NCBI RefSeq assembly: GCF_029269265.1
Contig: NZ_JARIXP010000001.1
Location: forward strand, 291,568 to 355,567
Direction of reading: 5' to 3'
DNA: 64,000 nucleotides
Source of the DNA: Rheinheimera sp. 1928-s
GTDB lineage: Bacteria > Pseudomonadota > Gammaproteobacteria > Enterobacterales > Alteromonadaceae
Below, piece after piece: positions 60,999 to 63,292 of the stretch (position 1 is its first letter; every line of letters starts with the position of its first letter). Position numbers and translations under genes: made by a program. The notes beneath the pieces were generated by a model that was given only the letters and a program-made list of their open reading frames with translations, was not told the DNA's origin and ran no database searches.

Positions 60999-61039
60999 TG
61001 GGGTTAATGCTGCTGCACTGTCAGCAAGCGTTGACCCCA
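60999..61039. terminator. Imperfect TGGGGT palindrome at the convergent end of ftsX
   Basis: TGGGGTTAATGCT-GCTG (left) pairs with CAGC-AAGCGTTGACCCCA (right), interrupted by a few mismatches. It lies 16 bp after the ftsX stop and contains the last codons of the EAL-HDOD gene. The TGGGGT...ACCCCA ends relate it to the palindromes at 6573 and 21918. Confidence 0.5.
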
Positions 61040-62224
61040 TTCTACTGCTTCAAAGTACACCAGATTCAAATCCACTGTCTCCGGCACCATACGGGAGGAC
61101 AGATCAGTTTGTTGTTGCCACAAACCTTGCTCAAAAGTGCGTTCAACCGTCAGGTAATCTGCCAGTATTCCTTTATTTTCCAGCAAAGCTACTTTAATTT
61201 CTGGCAGCAGAGGCAACTGAGCTAACAGTTCTTCCAGCGGCTGTTCCAGTAAAGCATCCACCAGCGAAAACAAACCTGTTAAAAACGCCGCAGGCGGATT
61301 CTCCTGATCTCCACGTATATTGGCCAGTCGATCACAAAAGCGTGCCCGGATCAGAGACATAGCTAATAGCTCATCCGATTGCCCCTCGGCCAGATTGGCC
61401 AGTGCCAGCAGGGAAATAAATTTTTTCAGTTCAGCTTCGCCCATATACACCATGGCGTGTTTCAGCGAGCCAATAGATTGTTTGCGGGCATACTGGACGC
61501 TATTAATAAAGCGCAGCAGCTTATAGGAGATATCCAAGTCACGTTCAACTATGGCTGCCAGCCCATCAAAATCCAGCCGTACCTTACTGGATTCACTGAT
61601 TAGTGCCAGCAGGTTCAGTTTATTGCTGCCGAGTTGTTTATGTTTCAGCATCTCCGGCCGGGCAAAAAAGTAGCCCTGATACAAATCAAAGCCAAGTTGT
61701 TTGAGTTGTTCATATTCATCTGCAGTTTCCACTTTCTCTGCCAGTAAGGTCACAGGGTACTTAGCAATGCGGCGCAGATATTTACTGATCTGCAGTATGT
61801 TAAACATCCTCACGTCTACCTTAATAATGCTGACATAAGGTAAAAACACGTCCCACTTTGCATCAAAGTCATGATCGTCCAGCGCAAGGCGATAGCCCAT
61901 TTTATGCAGCTCTTTGCACGCCGTCAGTAGCTCGTCACTAATAGGCACGGTTTCCAGAATTTCAATCACCATACTGTTAGGATCAATAGAGGTGGGGAAG
62001 TGATGAATTAAGGTGTCAGCTGAAAAGTTAATAAAAGCTTGTTTGCCGCCAGTGATCTTTTCAACTCCCAACAATAAATGGTGCTGGGTGATGAGTTTAG
62101 AGGTGGCTTCGTCTGCATCAATATTTGGAAAGCAGTTGTCTACGCCATCCCGGAACAACAGTTCGTATCCTGTTACGGCTTTTTGGCGGTCAAAAATAGG
62201 CTGGCGCGCGACATAGCAATACAT
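61004..62224 (-). CDS. EAL-HDOD signalling protein (YuxH/CdgJ type)
   Basis: 406 residues. The N-terminal EAL-like domain (about 1-195) reads 'GYELLFRDG' instead of E-A/V-L-x-R, keeps 'FINFS', 'VIEILE', 'LALDDHDF', 'IIKVDVR' and 'LLAEKVET', and lacks the usual N-terminal and Q-signature segments, so cyclic-di-GMP hydrolysis is doubtful. The HDOD domain follows (about 200-380, 'VERDLDISYKLLRFINSVQY'). Relatives such as Vibrio CdgJ affect motility and biofilm. It lies between ftsX and rpoH on the opposite strand, interrupting the usual ftsYEX-rpoH order. Confidence 0.9.
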   Translation of the reverse strand: MYCYVARQPIFDRQKAVTGYELLFRDGVDNCFPNIDADEATSKLITQHHLLLGVEKITGGKQAFINFSADTLIHHFPTSIDPNSMVIEILETVPISDELLTACKELHKMGYRLALDDHDFDAKWDVFLPYVSIIKVDVRMFNILQISKYLRRIAKYPVTLLAEKVETADEYEQLKQLGFDLYQGYFFARPEMLKHKQLGSNKLNLLALISESSKVRLDFDGLAAIVERDLDISYKLLRFINSVQYARKQSIGSLKHAMVYMGEAELKKFISLLALANLAEGQSDELLAMSLIRARFCDRLANIRGDQENPPAAFLTGLFSLVDALLEQPLEELLAQLPLLPEIKVALLENKGILADYLTVERTFEQGLWQQQTDLSSRMVPETVDLNLVYFEAVEWGQRLLTVQQH

Positions 62225-62437
62225 ATGGGTAGCCTTGAATTGTTATATTTTTATCATTAGCACTGATCGCAAGTTCTAAATTTATCATATAAGAAAACTC
62301 AGCTGTTATATATGAATTGATATTATTAAAAAACAGGGCTTATACAATTCGGATCTTAAAAGATGGAAATTTCTTTTAGCACTCTCAGCTAAAGAGTGCT
62401 AAGATTTGACCCAATCAAGCAAGTAAGGGGAAATTAC
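62225..62437. promoter_or_regulatory. rpoH upstream region
   Basis: A 213-bp AT-rich divergent region between the EAL-HDOD gene and rpoH. The only clear signal is the CIRCE element at 62376-62402. The rpoH promoter was not assigned with confidence; AT-rich segments around 62310-62365 are candidates. Confidence 0.5.
62376..62402 (+). promoter_or_regulatory. CIRCE element (HrcA operator) upstream of rpoH
   Basis: TTAGCACTC (62376-62384), nine bases, GAGTGCTAA (62394-62402): all 18 conserved positions of the CIRCE consensus match. The stem could also extend by one A-T pair on the loop side. It lies 35 bp before the rpoH ATG and 18 bp before its ribosome-binding site, so it would be in the leader or at the transcription start. 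HrcA bound here would repress rpoH. Confidence 0.92.
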
Positions 62438-63292
62438 ATGACTCAGGCTTCACAAATGATGACTCTGACAGTGGCTGGAAGTGGCAGCCTTGAAGCTTAC
62501 ACTCATGCGGTAAGTACCATCCCTATGCTCACAGCAGAAGAAGAGCGTTCTTTAGCTGAAAAATTACAGCAAGACGGTGATTTAGAATCGGCTCGCGTGT
62601 TGATTATGTCTCACCTGCGCTTTGTAGTGCATATTGCCCGCAGCTACTCAGGTTACGGTTTACCAATAAGCGATCTGATCCAGGAAGGCAATATTGGCCT
62701 GATGAAAGCAGTCAAACGTTTTGACCCTTCAGTTGGTGTGCGTTTAGTGTCTTTTGCTGTGCACTGGATCAAAGCTGAAATTCATGAGTTTGTGCTGAAA
62801 AACTGGCGTATTGTCAAAGTGGCAACGACCAAGGCGCAACGCAAGTTGTTCTTTAATCTGCGTAAAGCCAAAAAACATTTAGGCTGGTTCAGTAAAGAAG
62901 AAGTGCAAAACGTAGCTGACTCTTTAGGCGTTCCTGTACACGAAGTGGTGGAAATGGAATCCCGTATGAGCAACTATGATATGCCTTTTGATGCATCTGA
63001 TGATGAAGAAGAAAGCAATTACACTGCTCCGGTATTTTATTTACAGGACAAAGAGTCTGATTTAGCCAACCGTATTGAAGAAGACCAGTGGGACACTGCC
63101 GCTGTTGATCGACTGCAGGCTGCAGTAAGCACATTGGATGACCGCAGTCAGGACATAATCCGGGCCCGTTGGTTAGATGATCAGAAACTGACTTTGCAGG
63201 AATTAGCTGACCGTTATCAGGTGTCTGCTGAACGTGTACGTCAGCTGGAAAAAAATGCGATGAAAAAACTGCAGGCTGCAATGGCTGCTTAA
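62438..63292 (+). CDS. rpoH: RNA polymerase heat-shock sigma factor RpoH (sigma-32)
   Basis: 284 residues. Region 2 has '[38 protein letters not shown]' (read in parts, about 51-85), and the diagnostic RpoH box is '[18 protein letters not shown]' (about 128-145). Region 4 has '[29 protein letters not shown]'. It directs transcription of chaperone and protease genes on heat or protein stress. The ATG at 62438 is preceded by AAGGGG with a 7-bp space; the open frame extends 14 codons further without need. A terminator shared with the convergent gene follows. The CIRCE element upstream is notable. Confidence 0.97.

Follow-up and report, generated by a model that had tools for sequence, protein, structure and literature searches.

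HrcA appears to retain rpoH as its one recognisable target in Rheinheimera sp. 1928-s

In Rheinheimera sp. 1928-s the HrcA repressor appears to have one recognisable target left, the sigma32 gene rpoH, and an old chaperone switch appears to have been turned into a heat-shock gate. The stretch of DNA analysed (the window, 64,000 nucleotides of contig NZ_JARIXP010000001.1) carries a perfect CIRCE, the HrcA operator, shortly upstream of rpoH. It is highly probable that this CIRCE serves as a DNA operator for HrcA repression of rpoH, taken as part of the whole circuit proposed below. HrcA control of rpoH is what we infer from the comparative evidence, and binding, repression, GroEL sensing and the feedback loop belong to the proposal in the same way. 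The features of the region are:

62351..62361, plus strand: GGATCTTAAAA block, 25 bp 5′ of the CIRCE (rpoH leaders judged by eye)
62376..62402, no strand assigned: CIRCE, HrcA operator; its perfect inverted repeat has 9-bp arms around 9 nt of spacer
62425..62430, plus strand: AAGGGG, presumed Shine-Dalgarno-like sequence of rpoH (by eye), outside the CIRCE stem
62438..63292, plus strand: rpoH, heat-shock sigma factor sigma32, 284 aa, ATG at 62438, with matches to TIGR02392 and NF005143

Positions 62376-62402 read TTAGCACTC-TCAGCTAAA-GAGTGCTAA and show 0 mismatches to the CIRCE consensus TTAGCACTC-N9-GAGTGCTAA, just as an earlier note on this DNA had stated; the distance of 35 bp that it gave between the element (end 62402) and the rpoH ATG (62438) holds as well. 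When the window was shuffled 100 times with dinucleotides preserved, CIRCE matches with up to 3 mismatches numbered 0.02 on average and 1 at most. The copy before rpoH was the sole one with ≤3 mismatches in a pattern search of the whole 4.64-Mb genome, which at this threshold revealed no second HrcA target. The element is also perfect in 22/22 genomes of the same genus. A chance palindrome as the origin of the CIRCE was ruled out by the shuffled window together with the conservation in relatives. The same 22 genomes gave 10 extra 3-mismatch matches vs. 6 for a reversed control pattern (counted by eye), and because the control gives similar numbers the extra matches look like chance.

The gene 3′ of the CIRCE was identified as RpoH, with 413 bits on TIGR02392 (rpoH_proteo; cut-off 323.1) and 435.9 bits on NF005143. 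Its open reading frame as listed begins farther upstream at a GTG, and we read the ATG at 62438 as the start; AAGGGG (62425-62430) begins 22 nt past the CIRCE arm. In an RpoH tree of 41 rows the window's protein is nearest to that of Rheinheimera soli. Upstream of rpoH, on the same strand, lie genes which we take to be ftsY, ftsE and ftsX. The E. coli rpoH is orthologous and has genes of the same labels upstream on the same strand, but E. coli differs in that no hrcA match was found in the control genomes, and the window has an EAL-HDOD gene (61004-62224, minus strand, divergent) between ftsX and rpoH. This EAL-HDOD gene matches positions 111-236 alone of the 236-position EAL model.

No sigma70 consensus promoter for rpoH was found by a consensus scan, nor in the window by a looser script, which covered up to 9 leaders per group (8/9 of the g19 leaders were not orientable). 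As neither scan located a clear sigma70 promoter with respect to the CIRCE, the geometry of HrcA repression at rpoH is unproven. The best sigma32-like match within 250 bp 5′ of rpoH reached 9/13, vs. averages of 8.2-8.9 in shuffles of other upstream regions; sigma32 autoregulation of rpoH was considered as a reading and set aside. GATCT blocks with an A/T-rich stretch were seen by eye at a like distance, about 25 bp 5′ of the CIRCE, in the window (62351-62361) and in rpoH leaders from two genera, g18 and g37 (leaders L006, L117, L119 and L121 carry them), and in g37 the block is partly a direct repeat (by eye). The GGATCTTAAAA or GATCT block is possibly a promoter, an initially transcribed region or the site of another regulator.

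The genome of the window does carry hrcA. One HrcA match was found, scoring 129.2 bits on PF01628 (cut-off 22.2) and passing the TIGR00331 equivalog cut-off (231.3 vs. 197.2 bits). The 341-aa open reading frame lies 31 bp before grpE, forming an hrcA-grpE pair, and the gene divergent from it presumably encodes a NAD kinase. Both the N-terminal and the C-terminal parts of HrcA are present in the protein, and its residues 6-156 match the solved HrcA structure 1stz. With hrcA present and the CIRCE conserved before rpoH in relatives, the earlier interpretation of the element as an HrcA operator controlling rpoH is supported.

The same 395 genomes of the window's family were searched for hrcA and for CIRCE (≤1 mismatch), and the two lists were compared by eye. 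An hrcA match was obtained in 104/395 genomes, 103 of them above the cut-off; the genome below it (G099) is without CIRCE. CIRCE is present in 103/103 genomes with hrcA over the cut-off vs. 2/292 others. The 103 genomes fall into nine genera (g1, g18, g19, g23, g36, g37, g73, g79 and g80), and judging from RpoH tree neighbours some of these are related to Rheinheimera, Alishewanella and Pseudoalteromonas; in the 41-row tree the g18 row clusters with Rheinheimera pleomorphica, Alishewanella agri being close, and g19 lies among Pseudoalteromonas. Inspection covered 92 of the 105 CIRCE-bearing genomes (the 13 omitted are all g19), and the element precedes rpoH in 91 of these. The 92 take in 90/103 hrcA carriers, each with the CIRCE at rpoH; the 91st such site belongs to G168 (g73, 95% complete), in which no hrcA was detected, and four further CIRCE carriers of g73 all have hrcA. 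Together with the perfect copies in 22/22 same-genus genomes, these counts confirm conservation before rpoH in relatives. The single exception, G180, has a CIRCE without detected hrcA, and no RpoH, HrcA, GrpE, GroEL or GroES was found within about 1.5 kb of it. This perfect CIRCE-like palindrome (L097, G180:C18:290622-290648) may be a relic or a stem of the terminator type.

With rpoH starts in the relatives extrapolated from an RpoH alignment, the nearest CIRCE lies mostly 33-47 bp, and up to 98 bp, from the start. At ≤1 mismatch there is one CIRCE per carrier, except in three g80 genomes. G056 (g36), G108 (g79) and 3/4 hrcA-bearing g80 genomes have an additional copy, the starts of the two lying 31-34 bp apart, an arrangement that a protein operator would lead one to expect; in G056 and G108 the additional copy has 2 mismatches.

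The 292/395 family genomes without hrcA over the cut-off are presumably still heat-shock competent, and in E. coli sigma32 is controlled by an mRNA thermometer and by chaperone and protease (FtsH) action on the protein. Both points favour a reading in which the CIRCE is an HrcA site whose influence is minor or confined to the baseline, and rpoH mRNA structure, chaperones and FtsH do most to bring about the heat induction of sigma32. We regard this as rather unlikely, as all searched family genomes with hrcA retain the arms almost without a base change, which points to continuing selection. HrcA repression of rpoH through the CIRCE is the reading that we prefer.

At the same time, groES and dnaK have no recognisable HrcA site in the family genomes sampled. 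The groEL and dnaK loci came from 20 such genomes, of which 16 have hrcA and 4 (G022, G025, G109, G143) do not; the dnaK analysis comprised 19, with G362, which gave a sub-cut-off match alone, omitted. In the 200 bp 5′ of groES, the closest CIRCE match had 7-9 mismatches in the 20 loci (9 for the window's genome); the 300 bp 5′ of dnaK gave 6-9 mismatches at best in the 19 loci (8 for the window's genome). The mark of a classical HrcA regulon, a CIRCE before groESL or dnaK, is therefore absent from the window's genome in these intervals. The earlier note had seen in the rpoH site a stacking of two heat-shock systems; the CIRCE at rpoH agrees with this, while no CIRCE at chaperone operons accompanies it and the rpoH site is the only copy in the genome. 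By the sites seen, an rpoH-only HrcA regulon would thus be the rule in hrcA-bearing genomes of the family. With rpoH as the sole visible target, HrcA would therefore act there as a single-gene gate on sigma32, instead of a direct repressor of chaperone operons.

Sigma32-like matches were found before the chaperone genes themselves. Before groES they reached 10-12/13 in 20/20 loci, 87-151 bp from the start; 4/40 shuffles did as well as the 10/13 match of the window's genome, and a quarter of shuffles did as well as that of a same-genus genome (L145). Before dnaK the matches were 10-12/13 in 19/19 loci and 12/13 in the window's genome (no shuffle control). The window's hrcA is preceded by CTTGAAT-13-CCCCAC, a sigma32-like match of 11/13 equalled in 14/2000 mononucleotide shuffles, and is probably sigma32-driven, judging from this match. 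Upstream of hrcA in other genera the matches were 12-13/13 in g18 (14/14 fetched loci; 31 g18 genomes), 10-12/13 in g19 (4 loci), 11 in 3/4 g80 loci and 11 in g23. They were merely 8-10/13 in g36, g37, g73, g79 and one of the four g80 loci, and feedback on hrcA is therefore not general in the family.

In the circuit that we propose, HrcA, kept active by spare GroEL, would occupy the double-stranded CIRCE in the rpoH leader and lower rpoH transcription. Unfolded protein would titrate GroEL, leading to loss of HrcA activity and derepression of rpoH. Sigma32 would then transcribe groESL, dnaK and hrcA-grpE, and its output would restore the GroEL pool and the repressor, closing a negative feedback loop. 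GroEL sensing by HrcA is here carried over from Bacillus subtilis and is presumed to operate alike. The B. subtilis HrcA/CIRCE system shares the operator sequence, and we took its HrcA, which has GroEL as co-factor, as our model; there, HrcA acts directly on chaperone operons and GroEL stimulates its DNA binding, and to our knowledge B. subtilis has no sigma32. If the proposal is true, the heat-shock circuit would be two-tiered, with sigma32 driving the synthesis of GroEL and, in some members of the family, also that of HrcA.

The link between CIRCE and rpoH extends beyond the family. A contig scan for a CIRCE core with a sigma-factor motif 265-295 bp downstream gave at least 120 stretches, 120/120 of which precede an RpoH homologue; since the pattern demands both CIRCE and the motif, the scan shows breadth, not frequency. 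Titles among the matches listed (80 of at least 120) are mostly beta- and gammaproteobacterial and include Nitrosomonas, Dyella, Rhodanobacter, Methylophilus, Chromobacterium, Pseudoalteromonas, Alishewanella, Rheinheimera and a Desulfuromonadaceae genome. CIRCE copies (≤2 mismatches) numbered 1-3 per genome in 32 scan-matched genomes, and 20 sites from nine scan-matched genomes were distributed over groES/groEL (9), rpoH (9) and hrcA (2). Of 369 genomes drawn from the class, 268 have hrcA and 281 have CIRCE (≤2 mismatches); as compared by eye, CIRCE was present in 264/268 hrcA genomes vs. 17/101 others. Ten of these 17 genomes with CIRCE and without hrcA are <90% complete, and 4/268 hrcA genomes are without a ≤2-mismatch CIRCE. 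The 53 class-draw sites viewed, a small share of all, lie before groES (32), rpoH (19) and hrcA (2), with 0 elsewhere. Twenty-five of the 53 come from hrcA genomes at least 90% complete that have a single ≤2-mismatch CIRCE, at groES in 17 and at rpoH in 8, 'single' being uncertain in the 3/8 rpoH cases that carry another 3-mismatch site. Regulons confined to rpoH may thus also arise outside the window's family.

The CIRCE arms pair over 9 bp with a tenth T-A pair, as in the 10-bp pairing given in the earlier note, which had also considered control at the RNA level. That the arms act as an mRNA hairpin modulating translation or stability of the rpoH mRNA seems to us highly improbable. They do pair in RNA, no other stem in the predicted fold of the leader being as strong, and in the same fold three Shine-Dalgarno bases pair with CCC 62410-62412 in a separate, weak 3-bp helix. 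Yet the one leader folded has a z of -1.28, with 25/200 shuffles folding equally well or better. The Shine-Dalgarno and the ATG lie outside the CIRCE stem of the predicted fold, a stem that masks neither of them as that of an RNA thermometer would, and the distance from element to start varies over 33-98 nt in relatives. The element moreover travels with hrcA and is found elsewhere before groES and hrcA as well. An RNA thermometer or attenuator formed by the arms was rejected on the z of the one leader folded, on the Shine-Dalgarno lying outside the stem and on the occurrence of the operator before groES and hrcA, and the suggestion of RNA-level control finds no support on the same grounds.

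Conservation in the leaders agrees with this. Over 85 distinct family leaders, the information amounts to 1.99 bits per base in the arms, 0.84 in the spacer and 0.59 and 0.45 in the flanks, values biased toward invariance by the finding of sites by pattern; the invariance of the arms in the family is nevertheless real because every genome with hrcA over the cut-off has a site with ≤1 mismatch. Arm pairs 2-8 are of one pair type each in the 85 sequences, so that base identity is conserved beyond pairing, which is a point against RNA control. A protein operator fits the invariant arms and the leader fold better than an RNA switch.

Most accounts treat HrcA/CIRCE and sigma32 as parallel heat-shock strategies. 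In the arrangement suggested here one system sits atop the other, the repressor seeming to have dropped the chaperone operons and kept the sigma-factor gene. The HrcA/CIRCE regulon of beta- and gammaproteobacteria (groESL and rpoH, sometimes hrcA) is alike in operator, repressor family and rpoH as a target, but the window's family differs in being without the groESL site, groES and dnaK having sigma32-like matches only. Permina and Gelfand 2003 reportedly treat the HrcA and sigma32 regulons of beta-, gamma- and epsilonproteobacteria and may already report such sites, and a paper said to deal with Geobacter RpoH may do so for CIRCE-rpoH sites. Because either may precede us, no first report is claimed for the CIRCE-rpoH link in general. 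What seems distinctive here is the shrinkage of the HrcA regulon to rpoH alone, the CIRCE-rpoH link itself not being confined to the window's family. Our literature search, whose reach did not extend to Permina and Gelfand 2003, found no report of an rpoH-only HrcA regulon, and the terms HrcA, rpoH and CIRCE are absent from PMC5343134.

HrcA/CIRCE and sigma32 are described as two major heat-shock mechanisms in PMC545781, where a CIRCE is predicted before rpoH of Geobacter sulfurreducens at position -51. According to the same source, G. sulfurreducens is alike in having a perfect CIRCE shortly upstream of rpoH and hrcA in the genome; it differs in that CIRCE is also predicted there at groESL and hrcA-grpE-dnaK-dnaJ, in contrast to rpoH alone here. 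The doubt raised in the earlier note, whether such an arrangement has been described in relatives, is answered in part: the CIRCE-rpoH combination is widespread (at least 120 stretches) and has been predicted for G. sulfurreducens in that source.

HrcA of genus g19, Pseudoalteromonas by the RpoH tree, is divergent in its C-terminal domain. On the Pfam model of this domain the g19 proteins score 31-51 bits vs. 117-133 in the window's genus, one HrcA copy split across two contigs being excluded from the comparison. Against the window's HrcA, four g19 proteins show 38-40% identity in the first 90 residues and 11-13% in the remainder, and three class-outgroup proteins show 41-49% and 22-23%. The CIRCE is still perfect in all 18 g19 rpoH leaders inspected. 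These observations favour the view that some members of the family, g19 being the likeliest case, have an HrcA that binds the CIRCE and responds to a different signal from GroEL; we think this improbable, as rapid drift of the C-terminal domain is no proof of a new ligand. GroEL-dependent repression of rpoH remains the preferred reading. Opinion is evenly balanced on a wider proposal for the hrcA-bearing genera, in which HrcA would be a one-gene regulator with the gating of sigma32 as its sole task, GroEL capacity would be read once, at the transcription of rpoH, in an integral-feedback-like loop, and the sensor would drift in Pseudoalteromonas; if true, the sensor domain of HrcA would be free there to drift or to switch ligand. 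In G362, G039, G394 and G409 (L424-L427), the Pseudoalteromonas-type HrcA keeps the DNA-binding part with a barely HrcA-like C-terminal domain, and the CIRCE before rpoH is still perfect.

Genus g80 (8 genomes searched) has gene and site together in four genomes and neither in four. It holds neighbours with and without hrcA and its site, so that the share of transcriptional gating in the sigma32 response would be comparable between them. G170, G194, G213 and G261 (hrcA and CIRCE) vs. G109, G143, G231 and G246 (neither) form a natural test pair.
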